A stretch of 64,000 bases of DNA from Methylophilales bacterium HTCC2181. GTDB taxonomy: Bacteria; Pseudomonadota; Gammaproteobacteria; Burkholderiales; Methylophilaceae. The notes below the pieces were generated by a model. That model was not told where the DNA came from and ran no database searches. It worked only from the letters and a program-made list of their open reading frames with translations. The stretch covers positions 868,001-932,000 of the forward strand of contig AAUX01000001.1 of the NCBI GenBank assembly GCA_000168995.1. Reading direction: 5' to 3'. Both the position numbers and the translations under genes were made by a program. Of this stretch, positions 1 to 6,642 are shown piece by piece (position 1 is the first letter of the stretch; every line of letters begins with the position of its first letter).

Positions 1-85
1 GTGATTTATGAATAAATACTAGTTATAAGGTGGTGAGGAAAAGTGCCCTATCCCTTCCAGCCCGTCGGTTTTTGTGGTTCAGGCC

Positions 86-633
86 CTAGCGGTTTTCTTG
101 CTGGAATGTCCCTCCGGTATTTGTAATTAGGTTAATACCCAGATCCTTTTGGATTTCATTCTTTAGCTGAATAATTTCAATTTTCTAGTTCTTTAGCTGA
201 ATAATTTCAATTTTCCGGGGAACTCGGCGGATTATGTTATTTTTCGGGTTACCTGGTTCACCCAGGTCCGGTTGGTTTAGATTTTTTGGTAGTAAAATCT
301 CAATGTTTAACTCCTCTCCTTGAGGATTGTCATTCCGTAGATTGGCAGGTGGTTGGTTTGTTGTAATATGTCCAATCAGTAGATTTTGACTCCCATTTCC
401 TTACAAACACATTGAGGGTGGGTCAGATTCAAGCGTTTCCAAGTTCTCCTGGGCCAGTAGGAATTTACCTATACATACCCGGTTTTCCTTATAGTCCCTT
501 AAGAGTTCCCCTTAGCATTGCAGATTAATCGCTGAAGGCATGACCTATCTTTTTCCCATTCCGCGACAACATTAAATGCAATCAAAAAAAGAAGAAAACC
601 GATCAGGTTCTTACTCAGCATCGTTATCAGCAT
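86..633 (-). pseudogene. Decayed secreted-protein gene with frameshift, stops and a duplication
   Basis: Reading the minus strand from ATG 633 (or 621) gives a signal peptide (MLSKNLIGFLLFLIAF...) and about 20 further residues before TAA at 499-501. Just past that point another frame carries a long protein-like stretch that ends at TAG 86-88. It is broken only by TAA at 401-403 and TAG at 185-187. The TAG arises at the junction of a 30-bp tandem duplication that repeats KIEIIQLKN in frame; removing one copy restores reading. The gene follows the secreted-protein gene at 666-1496 by about 30 bp, so it was probably the third gene of that operon. The family is not recognised. That it is a broken gene is inference from the frame structure. 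Confidence 0.55.
159..216. repeat. 30-bp tandem duplication, two copies
   Basis: Two adjacent near-perfect copies of a 30-bp unit beginning ttctttagctgaataatttc occupy 159-188 and 189-216. The unit is a multiple of three, so it preserves frame in the decayed minus-strand gene but creates an amber codon at the junction. Confidence 0.85.
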
Positions 634-665
634 CTAGGTTTGTGGCTTATTCCAAAAAAAAAGGG

Positions 666-1496
666 CTAAGGCCAGGGATTAATTTCATACGGTTTCACTG
701 GTGATCCGGAATAGCCGTTTAGTAGGGTGAGGTTGTTTTGGTGCGAGAGATTCATATTGTTTGAGACACATATATTTGAGGGATCAATATAGGTTTTATT
801 GCTTATATTAGCTGTAATCGTATTGCTTGTATTAGCTGTAATCGTATTGCTTGTATTAGCTGTAATAGGAGGCTTTATAAAGCCTACGGTGTTATTTGTC
901 ACATTAATTATTTCAGCTAACTGAGTTTTTACGTCAAGGAGCGTGAGCTTAGTAAGGTTATTTCCTTGAGTATTATCATCAATAATTAACCGAAGCTTTT
1001 CGACAATAGCACCTACCATCTTATTCATAAATGTGATTTCGCTATTGGTGAATAGATCAAATATCTCAGAAAAAAATTGGTCTTGCAGCTCGTCACCTAA
1101 AAGAGGTATTAACGGTTCGAAAACGGTTATGTTTGAGAAGTCTTTTTTTAATGAAAATACGATATTCAAGTTTCTGGCTGCAAGGTAGGCGCATGTGTCG
1201 CGTACAGCGAGCAATTTAGATTGCTCTAAAATTACTGGAGTAACCTTTGGATTAGTCGAAGCAGCCTTTCGAAGCATCTTATAGTCTTCAATACTAGAAG
1301 GTTTAAAAGGTTTGATCAAGCCGTCCTTATTAACCTCGAACTCGCCTTGGAAAACCGCCGCGCCATTGAGATTTATACTGTCATACTTCTTAAAGGTGGA
1401 TTCGTCTATAATTGGTCCTTGTATGCTAGTAGCATTGGCAGTATTCAAAAAAAATCCGAAGAGTAGAAGGAAAGCTATCGAAGTGATATTTTTCAT
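666..1496 (-). CDS. Unrecognised secreted protein with an internal NTSNTITA repeat
   Basis: A 276-residue protein with a clear Sec signal peptide (residues 1-22, ending in TANA). No family is recognised. The mature part has only two cysteines, at about residues 101 and 243 in the primary chain, and an Asn/Thr-rich tract near residues 210-235 made of an 8-residue repeat. It starts 16 bp after the stop of the beta-barrel gene at 1513-2475, so the two are probably co-transcribed and act together in the envelope; that is inference. The mature protein has no predicted membrane segment by eye. It could be a periplasmic or surface partner of the barrel. Confidence 0.7.
   Translation of the reverse strand: MKNITSIAFLLLFGFFLNTANATSIQGPIIDESTFKKYDSINLNGAAVFQGEFEVNKDGLIKPFKPSSIEDYKMLRKAASTNPKVTPVILEQSKLLAVRDTCAYLAARNLNIVFSLKKDFSNITVFEPLIPLLGDELQDQFFSEIFDLFTNSEITFMNKMVGAIVEKLRLIIDDNTQGNNLTKLTLLDVKTQLAEIINVTNNTVGFIKPPITANTSNTITANTSNTITANISNKTYIDPSNICVSNNMNLSHQNNLTLLNGYSGSPVKPYEINPWP
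801..867. repeat. 24-bp tandem repeat, about 2.8 copies, inside a coding sequence
   Basis: Units at 801-824, 825-848 and 849-867 differ by only one or two bases (gcttatattagctgtaatcg, then gcttgtattagctgtaatcg). On the minus strand they encode successive NTSNTITA-type octapeptides in the secreted protein at 666-1496. The unit length keeps frame, so copy number can change without destroying the protein. Confidence 0.85.
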
Positions 1497-1512
1497 GTCT
1501 GTTTATTATCCT

Positions 1513-2475
1513 TTAAAAGTTTTTTGCAAGGCCCAGGGTCACGGAATTCATGTCATCGTATACGTCATCACCAAAATTTTTGGCGACGACACCATATAAT
1601 TCAATTCTGTGCTTCGGACTAAGCAGGTAAGAGCCACCAAGGTAGGCAGAGCCTGAAGCTTTCTCCCGTGCAGCATTAGATGAGTTAGTCTCAGTTCCAA
1701 CAATGTGGTGCGTGTAGCCACCAGTGACTCGCGCCCTGTTTTCATCAAAGTAGAAAGAAAGGTTTTGGTCGATGTGCCACATCGTTAACGTGTAACTCGA
1801 TACCAATGCAGCCGCCCCAGGGACGTTGAGGGTGGATTTAGTCTTTGAACGGTTGTGTGTGTATGACGGTGATAATGAGTAAACAAAACTGTCCTTAAAT
1901 ACATGCGTCGCACTTAAGTACACCCCTTTACCCTTACCTGTATTTTTAGACGACGCTGAGTTTAGTTGGGGAGACGTATCTAATGATCTGCCATCACCAT
2001 TTGTCCAGCCGGAGAAAGCACCGGCCGCTAGCCAATTGTTAATTTGGTATCTTAGGCTTACTCCATAACCACGTCCATCAGAGTCAGAGTTTGTGACAGT
2101 GGCCGGATTACCCTGATTAATAGAACTGTCACTGTCAATACCTGACAGTGAAAAGGCACCGGAAAAGTTTTTGGAAAATTGAATATTGGTACTCAATTGA
2201 ATGACCTTGGCATCCGATTCACCATTCGCATAGGGAGCCCCAAAAACAGTAAACCTATTATCACGCAAATAGCCATTAATGTTTGAATAATCTATTGCAA
2301 CCCTTGTGAGCTTGGGAAATTCATCGTCTTTAGGCGTTTTCGCTTTGATCCGATTATTTATTCTCTCTATTGCTTTTTCGATATCTGCTTCAGTTATTAT
2401 TTTCTCTTCCGCATGCGTTCCAAGCGAAACGCCTGCTAAAGCTAAAGCTATGATAATTGGAAGGGTTTTTAACAT
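1513..2475 (-). CDS. Outer-membrane beta-barrel protein
   Basis: A 320-residue protein with a signal peptide cleaved near THA-EE (residue 22), a short charged helical stretch (residues 24-50), then alternating amphipathic strands and a terminal phenylalanine (GLAKNF), the usual C-terminal signal for barrel assembly. The repeated strand pattern and the NW/YGVSLRYQI-type segments resemble autotransporter or opacity-type barrels, but no specific family is claimed. It heads a run of secreted-protein genes (666-1496 and the decayed 86-633). Function unknown; a porin or surface antigen is possible. Confidence 0.75.
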   Translation of the reverse strand: MLKTLPIIIALALAGVSLGTHAEEKIITEADIEKAIERINNRIKAKTPKDDEFPKLTRVAIDYSNINGYLRDNRFTVFGAPYANGESDAKVIQLSTNIQFSKNFSGAFSLSGIDSDSSINQGNPATVTNSDSDGRGYGVSLRYQINNWLAAGAFSGWTNGDGRSLDTSPQLNSASSKNTGKGKGVYLSATHVFKDSFVYSLSPSYTHNRSKTKSTLNVPGAAALVSSYTLTMWHIDQNLSFYFDENRARVTGGYTHHIVGTETNSSNAAREKASGSAYLGGSYLLSPKHRIELYGVVAKNFGDDVYDDMNSVTLGLAKNF

Positions 2476-2580
2476 TTATGAGAACTCTTAAAAAAAAATG
2501 AATCTTAACACGGTTTTTTGTGGTTTATGTTTTTTTCGCTTAATGATGTTGCTATTCCCATAACCTTCATGCAAAATTTT

Positions 2581-3369
2581 CTAGCTCATTAAAAACCTTA
2601 TAAAGATAATGGCTGCCATATGCAGGGGGTACAAGACATAAAATATGTGCTTTATCCTTTGGGTCCTCATATCAGCATGGGGCAACCAAAAAATGATTGG
2701 TAGAACAAGGAATGCGTACCAATTTCCATTGATATCAGCAAGCATGAAAAGTCCCATGATGATTACCAAAAGATTCTTCCAGTTAGGGCTTAATGCAAAG
2801 TAATATGAGGCGATTGTTATCAGTAGTCCGGCCCACAAATACTCGACAAATAATCCTCCAATAAGGAATATTGGGGCAGTAACAAGGGCACTATACTTTA
2901 TTGGCCATGAGTTAATCCAAAGAATAATTGCCACTAACAAGAACATGAGCATGATGTTCTGGCCTGTCAAATGAAAAATAAATCCCTGCGTCGTTAGGTA
3001 GGTGTAAGGAAACCAAGCAATCACCCCAGTAACTAGTAAACGGAGGAGCAATTTGAGGGTGTGTGGACTATCCTGGAAATTAAAGTGTTTTAAGCTGTAA
3101 CCAAAAACAAAAGCAAACAGTGGCACCGCTAAGCGTCCAAGTGGGGAGACATACTGTAATTGTGTAACGGGTAAAAACTTATAAAGGTGATCAATGGCCA
3201 TGCAAATAAAAGCAAACCATTTGAGCGCCTCTAGTGTTCCAGATCCTACATCGAAGTTGGGTGCTACCTTGCTTATTAGCATAGATTTGATACGCAAGAG
3301 CATTATATGGTTGATGACCCTGTAAATAAAAGACAAAGGCTCGTAACGTAAAAGAAGCGTCGTTAACAA
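2581..3369 (-). CDS. TraX-family membrane protein
   Basis: A multi-spanning membrane protein with TraX hallmarks: LKWFAFICMAIDHLYKFLP, then GRLAVPLFAFVFGYSL, and a C-terminal YPLHMAAI. TraX acetylates the F pilin in conjugative plasmids; many chromosomal homologues have no known substrate and are loosely related to membrane acyltransferases. The frame opens at TTG 3369 with an AGGA only 2 nt away; internal ATGs at 3303 and 3282 would shorten it to the usual TraX N-terminus, so the start is uncertain. No conjugation genes are nearby, so an envelope acylation role is inference. Confidence 0.8.
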   Translation of the reverse strand: MLTTLLLRYEPLSFIYRVINHIMLLRIKSMLISKVAPNFDVGSGTLEALKWFAFICMAIDHLYKFLPVTQLQYVSPLGRLAVPLFAFVFGYSLKHFNFQDSPHTLKLLLRLLVTGVIAWFPYTYLTTQGFIFHLTGQNIMLMFLLVAIILWINSWPIKYSALVTAPIFLIGGLFVEYLWAGLLITIASYYFALSPNWKNLLVIIMGLFMLADINGNWYAFLVLPIIFWLPHADMRTQRIKHIFYVLYPLHMAAIIFIRFLMS

Positions 3370-3422
3370 AATCCTACTTTCTCACATTATAAGTTAATTT
3401 TCTATTCAAACGGTGTTTTTAT

Positions 3423-3595
3423 CTGATATGTGAAGAGCCTGTAGGCCGAACAATCAAAGGGTTACTAATGGGTTGATTGGTACAGTGTAATCATCTCAGG
3501 TCATGATGACGGTATGACACTAGTGGGGGTTCGTGTATCTGAATAGATCGTATGACTTTGTAGAAGAAGATGAAGACCTTGATGATCCAGATTAA
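3423..3595 (+). pseudogene. Possible C-terminal remnant of an unidentified gene
   Basis: Plus-strand reading with two frameshifts gives a coherent protein-like string: CEEPVGRTIKGLLMG, then VDWYSVIISGHDDGMTLVG, then RSYDFVEEDEDLDDPD and a stop at 3593-3595. No family is recognised. The acidic tail and lack of low-complexity drift suggest former coding sequence, but the stretch is short and chance cannot be excluded. It lies in the 500-bp gap that also holds a cyclo-ligase remnant. Confidence 0.25.
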
Positions 3596-3700
3596 GGTTC
3601 TATCTTGTGACATATGTTTATAAATACGGTTGGTTAGAACAATGACCCTATGATAGTCAATGAATTTTAGGTGGTAATTTGAATGTCTTACTAGCTCACT

Positions 3701-3770
3701 TTATTGAAAAGAATAGGATTTATTGGGGGGTAACACAATGTGTCAAAGGTAGATCATGCTCAGTTATATT
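3701..3770 (-). pseudogene. 3' tail of a second 5-formyltetrahydrofolate cyclo-ligase gene
   Basis: Minus-strand translation gives NIT followed by EHDLPLTHCVTP and, after a one-base insertion in a C run, NKSYSFQ and stop. The intact cyclo-ligase at 4906-5472 ends HDIPLTHCVTPNRTYVF, so about 15 of 21 residues match. The DNA is clearly diverged, so this is not a fresh duplication. Upstream of 3770 (on the minus strand) similarity is lost to stops. It marks a former gene end about 1.1 kb downstream of the intact copy. Confidence 0.75.
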
Positions 3771-3835
3771 TTAAAGAAGTTTATTGTGTTAGGTATTTAT
3801 TTAGTAAGGATTAGAGCAGGGAAAAACTAAGAATT

Positions 3836-3854
3836 GGTGGAGGTAACCTCCACC
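3836..3854 (-). terminator. Stem-loop terminator after the secreted protein gene
   Basis: Perfect 8-bp stem (GGTGGAGG / CCTCCACC) with a 3-nt loop, 20 bp past the stop codon at 3874. On the minus strand it is followed by an A/T-rich stretch with a short T run, so it probably ends transcription of that gene; the T tract is weak. Confidence 0.55.
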
Positions 3855-3873
3855 GTAACACCTCTTAAGGTAA

Positions 3874-4569
3874 TTAAGCACAAGTTTGACCACCCAACTG
3901 GCGGTCAGCAGGAACGCCTAGACCGAACAGATCAGTAAAGGCAGCAACAGTCATTAACGTTGTTCCAGCGGCACAGCTTAATGTGCCTGCTGATGATCTT
4001 CTTGGCGTGCTTAATGTGTTAACTTCAACACTTCCATCGATAGCCAGGAAATCCCCTTTAGTTGTATAACCAGGCTTAGGATTTTTCCATTCTTCTGGGC
4101 GGTAATCAGGTTCTATGATGACATCTGCTCCTACCCTAATGTGATTACGTTGGAGGTATAGTGGTATCTTAATCGCGTGATGACTCTCAGACCACCCGAG
4201 GCCATACTCAACAATATTTGTCCTAGTGTTTGTAAGGCCCATCATTTTGGCACCTTCAAAAATACCCTCGCCCTTCTTCTTGTTAAGGGTGAACCTTACG
4301 CTACCATCCCATCCTGTCACATCATTATTAGACTTTACATCAACTCTTCTGCAACCTACGGTTAGGTCTGGCAAGTCCTTGAACAAATTTTGGTGAAACA
4401 TGTACTGCAAGCCCACATAGCAGGAGTTACTTGAACTTGAACCACCAACAGTGCCATTAGGAAGTGAACAAGTTGGCGCACTACAATCAGCAACGGCACC
4501 GGCATTTAATGGAAAAAAAATACTAAGCAAAAAGGCTATAGTAATTGTTTTAATAATTTGAAAATTCAT
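3874..4569 (-). CDS. Orphan secreted protein, 231 residues
   Basis: Starts best at ATG 4569, with AAAGGA upstream and an immediate signal peptide (FQIIKTITIAFLLSIFFPLN, cleaved near AGAVA). The open frame continues upstream to ATG 4731, but those 54 residues are the tail of a DUF2490 gene remnant, not part of this protein. The mature protein carries several cysteines (DCSAPTCSLP near the N-terminus, SCYVGLQ, GCRRVD, LSCAAG and a final QTCA) and a Ser-rich patch. No family is recognised; the Cys pattern suggests a disulfide-bonded periplasmic or surface protein. A terminator follows. Confidence 0.65.
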   Translation of the reverse strand: MNFQIIKTITIAFLLSIFFPLNAGAVADCSAPTCSLPNGTVGGSSSSNSCYVGLQYMFHQNLFKDLPDLTVGCRRVDVKSNNDVTGWDGSVRFTLNKKKGEGIFEGAKMMGLTNTRTNIVEYGLGWSESHHAIKIPLYLQRNHIRVGADVIIEPDYRPEEWKNPKPGYTTKGDFLAIDGSVEVNTLSTPRRSSAGTLSCAAGTTLMTVAAFTDLFGLGVPADRQLGGQTCA

Positions 4570-4605
4570 GTTTAGCGTTCCTTTAGTCTTGTATTTCTCT
4601 ACAGT

Positions 4606-4839
4606 ACCACGTACCAATAGATGATGCTTGAAAACAACATGATTCATTTGATCGCTTGATCCATTTGTACCATTGATATACTGATGTAAATAACCTATTT
4701 CGAACCGAGAAGCATCGTTATATTTGATCATGAGGCCAGTAAATAAGAGATTTTGGTTAAATCCATAATCGCCTCCCCATTGCGTATCGTTCCTACTCCA
4801 ACAAACTTCATCCCAAATTAAAGAATATAAATTATATTG
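4606..4839 (-). pseudogene. Truncated DUF2490 outer-membrane protein gene remnant
   Basis: Minus-strand frame reads SLIWDEVCWSRNDTQWGG, then GFNQNLLFTGLMIKYN, then RFEIGYLHQYI and DQMNHVVF. This is the typical C-terminal half of DUF2490 proteins (W-E-x-x-W, GF-x-QN-R-L-F-x-G, E-x-GY-x-N-QY, NH-x-x-x). The frame is closed upstream by TAG 4840-4842 and there is no start or signal peptide, and the terminal strand runs on into KHHLLV. It is therefore a 5'-deleted remnant, in the same frame as the secreted gene downstream. Confidence 0.65.
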
Positions 4840-4905
4840 CTATTGGTCGGCTTTACGCGCTCCACCCCAGCTCATCTAAGTTTTTTATAGGCTAGCTTGT
4901 GACAA

Positions 4906-5472
4906 TTAAAAAACATAGGTTCTATTGGGTGTGACGCAATGGGTCAACGGTATATCGTGGCTTGTTATATCCACTATTTCTGTGCAGGGATCAAACAGAC
5001 TGATTCCGACCCGCCTCACCTCCTTGGGCAAGGAAGCAAAAAAACGATCGTAGAATCCTTTACCATAACCCACACGGTAGCCCTTGCAGTCAAAAGCCAA
5101 CAGCGGAGTAATCACCATATCGATATCATTGCCCTCTTCCCAAACAGGATCAATGGGCTCGGTAATATTGTAATGGGTTTGGCTTATTTTAGTGTGCGGG
5201 CTAAATTGGGCATTTTTCAGTGTCCCGTCGGCAAAGTTACTAACAGGCACCAGAACCTTAATGTTATTTTCCCAGCAGTACTGGATGATGGCTGTCGTAT
5301 TAATTTCACCTCTTGAATGGATGGGAAGAAAACAATGCATGCACTTAGGCTTATAGTGTTCAATAAGCGCAATGCTATTGTGAACAAGTTTGGATGATTC
5401 CTCTTCAAAGGTAGCGGGAACTTGTTCTTGACGTTTTTTTAAATAAGTTTTTCTAGCTATATCTTTTTTCAA
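4906..5472 (-). CDS. ygfA: 5-formyltetrahydrofolate cyclo-ligase
   Basis: Converts 5-formyl-THF to 5,10-methenyl-THF with ATP, salvaging a folate by-product in the cytoplasm. The signature GYGKGFYDRF lies near residues 135-144, followed by the C-terminal PLTHCVTPNRTYV motif. An ATG at 5511 would add 13 residues, but TTG 5472 has AGGAAGGA seven bases upstream and places MKKDIARKTYLKKRQ at the N-terminus, matching the family's usual Lys-rich beginning; I therefore prefer TTG (188 residues). I looked for a 6S RNA upstream, as often found beside this gene, and did not see one. Confidence 0.88.
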   Translation of the reverse strand: MKKDIARKTYLKKRQEQVPATFEEESSKLVHNSIALIEHYKPKCMHCFLPIHSRGEINTTAIIQYCWENNIKVLVPVSNFADGTLKNAQFSPHTKISQTHYNITEPIDPVWEEGNDIDMVITPLLAFDCKGYRVGYGKGFYDRFFASLPKEVRRVGISLFDPCTEIVDITSHDIPLTHCVTPNRTYVF

Positions 5473-5511
5473 AATAATATCCTTCCTATTCAATCTAAAA
5501 ATATCATGCAA

Positions 5512-5823: not shown

Positions 5824-6642
5824 ATGAGCGTATTAGAAGCTTTCAAAAAATTAAAAGCCGAAGGAAAGAAAATTGTAGTTGTTACCTCGTATGAGTACTG
5901 GAGTGCGAAGATCCTTAACGACACCGACGTCAACGGGATTTTAATTGGTGACGATTCGGCTATGGTTATTCATGGCCATGAAGATACATTGCTTTCTGAC
6001 GTGGAAACCATTGCCATGCACACCAGGGCGGTAAAAAAAGGTGCTAAAGATAAATTCCTTATTGCTGCTATGCCCTTTATGAGTAATAGAAAAAGTTTTG
6101 AGGAGTCAATGGATAACGTTGAAATCTTGATGAAGGCCGGGGCAAATGCACTGAAAATTGAGGGTGTTGATGGGAATGAAGAGCTCTATGCGCATCTTTC
6201 CCAGTCCGGCATTCCAACAATAGGTCATATCGGCCTTACCCCCTCTCACCACAATGCAATCGGTGGATTTAAAGCCCAAGGGAAAACTACAGATAGTGAG
6301 CGTAGCATCATTGAGGAAGCTAAAAAACTTGATAAGCTTGGCTGTATTGCAATCGTTTTAGAAGCCGTTCCACAACACGTAGGCGCTGCAGTAAGGGACG
6401 CGGTATCTATCCCGGTAGTGGGAGTCGGGGCAGGATTGGACGTAGATGGGCAAGCACTCGTTCTTCCTGATATGCTAGGATTTTCTACAGACTTCAAGCC
6501 TAAATTTGTAAGGACCTATATGGATGGAGCTAAACTTATTAGGGATGCCGTCAACCAGTTCGCCGCCGACGTGCATGCAGAAGCGTTCCCATCGGCCCAA
6601 GAAACTTACGCACCAGGTAAAGAACAGCTACCTATGAAATAA
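5824..6642 (+). CDS. panB: Ketopantoate hydroxymethyltransferase (PanB), divergent
   Basis: Family enzyme makes ketopantoate from 2-oxoisovalerate and 5,10-methylene-THF, first step of pantothenate synthesis. The 272-residue length and the motifs IGDDSAM (42-47), KIEG (E113), GHIGLTP (134-140), VLEAVP (E180) and VGVGAG fit PanB. However, the conserved metal-ligand aspartate in the (V/A)D-M/L-PF motif is alanine here (IAAMPFM, A82), and GDS is expanded to GDDS. panC and panD are not adjacent. It may be an active variant or a PanB-fold enzyme with another substrate. Confidence 0.82.
   Translation: MSVLEAFKKLKAEGKKIVVVTSYEYWSAKILNDTDVNGILIGDDSAMVIHGHEDTLLSDVETIAMHTRAVKKGAKDKFLIAAMPFMSNRKSFEESMDNVEILMKAGANALKIEGVDGNEELYAHLSQSGIPTIGHIGLTPSHHNAIGGFKAQGKTTDSERSIIEEAKKLDKLGCIAIVLEAVPQHVGAAVRDAVSIPVVGVGAGLDVDGQALVLPDMLGFSTDFKPKFVRTYMDGAKLIRDAVNQFAADVHAEAFPSAQETYAPGKEQLPMK

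Follow-up and report, generated by a model that had tools for sequence, protein, structure and literature searches.

A dead 3' remnant of a 5-formyltetrahydrofolate cyclo-ligase gene beside a solo tRNA-Ala(GGC) end in Methylophilales bacterium HTCC2181

The window analysed here is a stretch of 64,000 nucleotides corresponding to C3:868001-932000 of the 1,304,428-base genome of Methylophilales bacterium HTCC2181, a member of the OM43 clade, which is assembled in 3 contigs. It harbours an intact gene (fau) for 5-formyltetrahydrofolate cyclo-ligase and, to the left of this gene, a short remnant of a second one, together with the following features (window positions).

1 to 77, plus strand: copy, at 80%, of the downstream flank of the genome's own tRNA-Ala(GGC) gene, 249 bp from the second solo end of that tRNA gene
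2581 to 3369, minus strand: gene for a TraX-like membrane protein (PF05857, E 4.5e-31; PHROG 'transfer protein', E 7e-27), adjoining a dispersed repeat
3343 to 3617, plus strand: dispersed repeat with six further copies in the same genome
3704 to 3772, minus strand: non-functional 3' tail of fau, about 22 codons, assigned by its DNA likeness to fau and carrying a frameshift in a C6 run
3773 to 3834, minus strand: flank of the solo tRNA-Ala end, similar to the flank of the own tRNA gene in the flank comparison and abutting the fau tail
3835 to 3848, minus strand: solo 3' end of a tRNA-Ala(GGC) gene, GGTTACCTCCACCA, found by a pattern search with a reversed-pattern control
3874 to 4569, minus strand: orphan open reading frame of 231 aa between intact fau and tail, with a signal-peptide-like start by eye (open reading frame list, family searches)
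4657 to 4839, minus strand: C-terminal remnant of a DUF2490 gene (PF10677 positions 125-183 of 186, E 7.7e-10)
4906 to 5472, minus strand: intact fau, 188 aa, apparently native (PF01812, E 7.9e-30; sole full-length match in its own genome)
5824 to 6642, plus strand: gene resembling that for ketopantoate hydroxymethyltransferase (panB-type; PF02548), the neighbour of fau in the genus

The orphan gene for a putative secreted protein and the DUF2490 remnant, which an earlier sequence-only reading had placed between the two cyclo-ligase sequences, are indeed present there. The former occurs in 1 of 31 genomes, namely that of HTCC2181 itself (the set including 19 of the 25 genus genomes), and gave no Pfam or PHROG family, and the latter is the sole PF10677 match of its own genome. 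The TraX-like protein has relatives at 27-28% in Xanthomonas and Stenotrophomonas phages, which we take to be filamentous. The further copies of the dispersed repeat are located at C3:867409-867581, 790872-791024, 656697-656937, 655660-655757, 653084-653249 and 658350-658516; a query of 3400-3660 found no match in 40 other genomes, and a longer one matched 49 nt in G018. Copies near the tmRNA (L148) directly precede genes whose starts resemble signal peptides, which gives the impression that a common 5' region was used repeatedly, and L148 6332-13539 is a gene array directly after the tmRNA with several outer-membrane Pfam matches and with intergenic repeats that are 73-92% identical. L148 8217-9299 and window 1513-2475 are paralogs (39% over 304 aa), and L148 10086-10523 matches window 499-633 (52% over 31 aa). 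Approximately 8.8 kb to the left of fau are occupied by genes of unknown family, a gene with the mentioned paralog near the tmRNA, the TraX-like gene, two gene tails and dispersed repeats, and this stretch ends at a flavin monooxygenase/metY-type gene pair (C3:861440-864065). Three of 18 relatives (G013, G008 and G011) have that pair immediately within their fau/panB cluster; in G002 a metY-type gene is found 4.2 kb from fau.

The scar of a second cyclo-ligase gene that had been read from the minus strand, with a one-base shift in a run of C, was confirmed at 3704-3772, where the reverse complement reads ITEHDLPLTHCVTP followed by NKSYSFQ in the next frame, the frame break being the C6 run at 3725-3730. 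Fifteen of 20 residues are identical to the C-terminus of intact fau, close to the 15 of 21 or so that had been claimed. When the tail was aligned with the intact gene, as the sequence-only reading had proposed, it obtained a local score of 48 as compared to a shuffle maximum of 34 (1,000 first-order shuffles, 0 of 1000 reaching 48), and it represents the window's best match to intact fau, being the top score among 12,648 strand-wise segments (70-nt segments in 10-nt steps, both strands scored separately, starts 4801-5500, i.e. the intact gene, excluded). This likeness ends at both edges of the tail, as 925 of 1000 shuffles were as good for the downstream flanks and 61 of 1000 for the upstream flanks. 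While the intact gene is a clear member of the PF01812 family, the tail (21-25 residues) aligns with the last 22 or so codons of the family and has no Pfam match on its own; a fau-tail model, R1, picks it up at E 1.1e-15 (the tail itself being part of the model), and tblastn of the tail gave 20-residue matches to relatives. In a search of 41 genomes with the fau-tail model, for which one comparison genome per species was used, strict filters were applied and at most 124 candidates were scored per genome, an extra fau tail was detected in one genome, that of HTCC2181. A phage-borne fau was rejected, as no relative was present in viral contigs and no phage DNA matched 3500-5500; 14 phage records carry distant cyclo-ligases, each below 60% identity.

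Streamlined marine bacteria keep few pseudogenes, and a foreign-looking gene end is informative for that reason. Two results go beyond the earlier reading, the first being an identity of 60/65 between the tail and the fau of another species, and the second an adjoining tRNA-Ala(GGC) 3' end. With gaps left out, the DNA of the tail is identical to the corresponding fau sequence of G002 at 60, of G004 at 59, of G016 at 54 and of G017 at 53 of 65 bases, as compared to 47 of 65 for its own intact gene, so that the 'strongly diverged' DNA of the sequence-only reading holds for the comparison of the two tails within this genome; the own intact fau tail in turn agrees with that of G002 at 50 of 66 bases. 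FastTree placed the tail with G002 and G004 in one group (support 0.892), and the G+C content of the tail is 33.3%, as compared to 42.4% for the own intact fau tail and 28.8% for that of G002. With G002 as outgroup, a relative-rate test counted 2 changes in the tail alone and 13 in the own gene alone (p 0.0045); the counts with G004 were 3 and 12 (p 0.02), and those with G017, 5 and 10, did not differ significantly (p 0.20). Since a dead copy that arose within the lineage would be expected to evolve no more slowly than its functional counterpart, these findings favour import of the tail, albeit short of proof.

The AU test (66 sites) did not reject the tail and the own intact gene as sisters (p 0.32), and would accommodate a different origin, in which fau was duplicated within its own lineage, one copy decayed and the working copy then changed fast. 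The position of the tail on the same strand as intact fau and just 1.1 kb away is in agreement with such a duplication, as is the own-type tRNA scrap by the tail; however, the dead copy must then have changed far less than the working one, as the test with G002 indicates, the tail is AT-rich, and the flanks outside the tail are not shared, for which reasons we regard this origin as unlikely. When window 1-4905 was compared with G002 and G004 DNA, no match besides the tail was obtained (9 of 23 and 9 of 25 first-pass candidates scored; genomes 60% and 77% complete).

The intact gene was assessed against nine core genes in six comparisons, and each time 4 or 5 of the nine showed a higher similarity than fau. 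Fau identity and nine-gene median, respectively, were 70.2 and 71.2 for G004, 72.3 and 72.3 for G017, 66.0 and 66.2 for G016, 65.4 and 65.8 for G018, 64.2 and 64.4 for G008, and 64.4 and 74.5 for G019. Six of fifteen listed core genes are absent from the nine-gene set, namely rnhB and lpxB, which had no match in the available stretches, and lpxA, lpxD and dtpT, which are missing in some, as well as cdsA, which has matches in all eight and was added in a separate comparison. Inclusion of cdsA drops the core medians by 4 to 9 points, to 65.3 (G004), 64.5 (G017), 62.5 (G016), 60.8 (G018), 57.4 (G008) and 65.9 (G019), and places fau 3.5 to 8 points over five medians and 1.5 under the sixth. Because cdsA shifts the medians, the agreement of fau with the nine-gene median is not robust, while its mid-range rank is. 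Intact fau therefore looks native, an ordinary gene within the core range and no outlier, and its transfer, which had been suspected from its closeness to relatives, was rejected on the core-gene comparison. The divergence among the compared core genes also agrees with PMC10872708, in which HTCC2181 is its own genus-level lineage with an AAI below 60% to all other strains.

These data bear on a reading in which the tail is the old resident fau and the present intact copy is the incoming gene that displaced it. Two fau alleles at one locus, the adjoining DUF2490 tail, which shows that gene ends get left behind here, and the fact that intact fau exceeds the core median in five of the six comparisons once cdsA is included would be in keeping with a displacement. 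Against it, intact fau is mid-range among core genes and its G+C content (41.8%) is near that of the window (39.4%), and the tail has 92% identity to G002 where resident core genes have a median DNA identity of 66-67% to G004 and G017 of the same clade; with so much higher an identity, it is the tail that represents the odd one, and displacement is improbable. Owing to the mid-range divergence of intact fau, the tail looks imported from a sister lineage and the intact gene native, although the tree test leaves this unsettled. Of the suggestion that a foreign or ancient homologue had been displaced, 'foreign' is thereby borne out by the G002/G004 identity, the relative rates and the G+C content, with the AU result permitting sisterhood with the own gene, whereas 'ancient' and 'displaced' find no support, given the rank of intact fau.

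Across the genus fau is present in 18 of 24 relatives and the named relatives of the window's fau are Methylophilaceae. Fau and the panB-type gene are adjacent across the genus in varying orientations, and the six genus genomes without fau (assemblies 66-91% complete) have no full panB-type copy, G023 carrying a 52-residue piece. In 20 of the 21 pairs that seven genomes allow, the panB-type neighbour exceeded every one of the nine core genes in similarity, and its identity for this reason says little on transfer. Among the 80 of 580 fau matches listed, relatives outside OM43-kind records are labelled Bacteroidota (34-48%), one 64% relative labelled Flavobacteriales may be misbinned, and matches in other members of the order are at 23-39% and over parts. 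An old transfer of fau into OM43 is possible.

The tail is separated by 62 bp from the solo tRNA-Ala(GGC) end. The own tRNA-Ala(GGC) gene is located 78 kb off at C3:793445-793520, and a second own solo end at C3:867738-867751, immediately left of the window; the two solo ends are inverted relative to each other and lie 74-78 kb from the tRNA gene. In a comparison of 22 flanks of 60 nt each with 1000 shuffles, the flank at 3773-3834 resembled that of the own tRNA-Ala gene (0/1000 shuffles as good), of the G022 tRNA (5/1000) and of the G017 solo end (9/1000), and was unlike the flanks of the G002 tRNA (847/1000), the G004 solo end (923/1000) and the G017 tRNA (652/1000). The second own solo end has a flank similar to those of the G016 tRNA-Ala gene (0/1000) and the G017 solo end (3/1000). 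As such matches cross species, tRNA-Ala flanks are common to several of them, the scrap in the window being of the own type, and joint import of tail and tRNA scrap is unproven because the flank of the scrap is own-like and not G002/G004-like. No tRNA-Ala end was found at the stop of the tail or of own intact fau (7/14 bases each). The sequence following the tail shares 13 nt with a G004 contig end, a match that was dropped since 331 of 2000 shuffles were as good, and a 13-nt direct repeat (3600-3612 and 4892-4904) was judged by estimate to be due to chance.

The 14-mer lies within an inverted repeat, GGTGGAGGTTACCTCCACC, that is followed by a T-rich run, and it could accordingly be a mere terminator hairpin of the open reading frame at 3874-4569. 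The reversed-pattern control, which gave 0 matches in the 25 genus genomes and 1, in G033, among 16 others, argues against this, as does the match of the 14-mer's flank to the own tRNA-Ala flank, and we therefore hold a terminator alone to be very doubtful; the 14-mer may be both a terminator and a tRNA-Ala end.

Clear solo tRNA-Ala(GGC) ends were present in 6 of the 25 genus genomes (own, G004, G012, G016, G017 and G021), with contig-edge copies in G007 and G021 left unclassed. In five of the 18 relatives, G021 (exact), G016, G014, G024 and G018, the stop of fau is followed after 2-5 nt by a copy of the tRNA-Ala end that matches at 11-14 of 14 bases and was equalled in no more than 3 of 2000 shuffles; these relatives represent five of the six members of one group in the fau tree (support 94/91). 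Eight of the 18 relatives have a tRNA-Ala(GGC) gene or solo end no further than 3.3 kb downstream of fau, in each case pointing at fau; among the ten relatives without such a tRNA-Ala, G004, G013 and G011 have less than 3.3 kb of downstream sequence. In G002 no tRNA-Ala end was found within 9.4 kb downstream of fau, and in G004 the 150 bp covered downstream contained none. The cargo between tRNA-Ala and fau differs between G017, G022, G008 and the G014/G018/G024 group, and in G017 the tRNA-Ala repeats are in direct orientation (both plus), 1.3 kb apart. At G021:C121, G021:C157, G012:C4 and G007:C38 the contig edge lies within 1 nt of the tRNA-Ala(GGC) 3' end or is that end itself, such breaks being as expected for a repeated or variable junction. 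Since tRNA-Ala ends recur beside fau while the intervening genes vary, the fau 3' flank of these relatives is, by its gene context, the border of a tRNA-Ala(GGC) insertion slot. No integrase was found among the scanned open reading frames of the island and a sample of those of the slot.

The recurring item in the genus is the tRNA end and not the fau tail. Fau itself as attachment site was rejected on the 41-genome search, in which the extra tail was confined to HTCC2181, and this qualifies the earlier suggestion of an element entering at the 3' end of fau: the fau 3' flank does border a slot in relatives, but it is the tRNA end that recurs. An integrative element with the fau 3' end as its attachment site, the tail and the intact gene representing its ends and the 1.1 kb between them its residue, would be in accordance with a homology that is limited to the last 22 or so codons up to about the stop, a pattern that may fit a crossover near the stop. 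Given that single genome, the genus-wide recurrence of the tRNA-Ala end and the lack of an integrase in the scanned open reading frames, we consider such an element highly improbable.

At a little under an even chance, our leading explanation is that the scrap is a dead relic of a G002/G004-type OM43 fau 3' end that remained after DNA had been exchanged at the slot between tRNA-Ala(GGC) and fau. The slot would end at the fau 3' flank, as it appears to do in several relatives, and therefore DNA entering or leaving could carry the fau end along; an exchange may have left a G002/G004-like fau end beside the resident gene, where it would have been joined to an own-type tRNA-Ala(GGC) end and then decayed, with resident fau staying whole. 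Excising elements can capture host flank imprecisely, and such capture would explain why the end of a foreign gene lies next to a piece of an attachment site, although no element gene was identified here. We infer the donor, the recombination step and a single event for tail and tRNA scrap. The scrap's flank, unlike the G002/G004 flanks, speaks against one donor for both, and because that flank is own-type and the orientation opposite to that in relatives (the window's solo end is on the minus strand, the tRNA-Ala ends downstream of fau in relatives on the plus), an inversion or a second event would be needed. The AU result, the rate test with G017, the lack of a tRNA-Ala end downstream of fau in G002, the lack of further G002 or G004 matches in window 1-4905 and the lack of an integrase among the scanned open reading frames likewise count against the leading explanation.

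The slot is akin to the additive flexible genomic island fGI-2 of 'Ca. Methylopumilus', a member of the same family, in which recurring tRNA gene 3' ends mark variable cargo; PMC10872708 reports such additive islands from freshwater relatives, with tRNA-Lys ends that recur. According to that paper, the fGI-2 tRNA is Lys(ctt) and the island is reported from two freshwater species only, whereas the present slot belongs to marine OM43, involves tRNA-Ala(GGC) and is bordered by the fau 3' flank; OM43-a (HTCC2181) is absent from its fGI-2 island figure, and 'tRNA-Ala', 'panB' and 'cyclo-ligase' do not occur in its text. Tycheposons and fGI-3 likewise represent cargo DNA beside a tRNA in streamlined genomes; according to PMC10872708, however, they start at tRNA-Met and carry xerD, while no recombinase was found here. 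The literature searched yielded no account of a tRNA-Ala-linked island in OM43, a paper on Dehalococcoides coming up instead, nor of a cyclo-ligase with an integrated island, and the tRNA-Ala(GGC)/fau exchange slot is thus unreported in that literature and a further case of a known kind.

The dead fau scrap of approximately 70 bases is a minor trace of gene exchange and no new system. It is conceivable, though unlikely, that the OM43 tRNA-Ala(GGC)-fau interval is a widely used exchange slot with a recombinase still unseen, and that fau and tRNA ends travel with cargo between lineages as tags of donor and route. The host is a marine methanol-eating bacterium whose relatives repeatedly gain DNA at such spots, and the tail and the tRNA-Ala(GGC) ends mark an OM43 exchange slot and offer a sequence with which the elements exploiting it can be sought.
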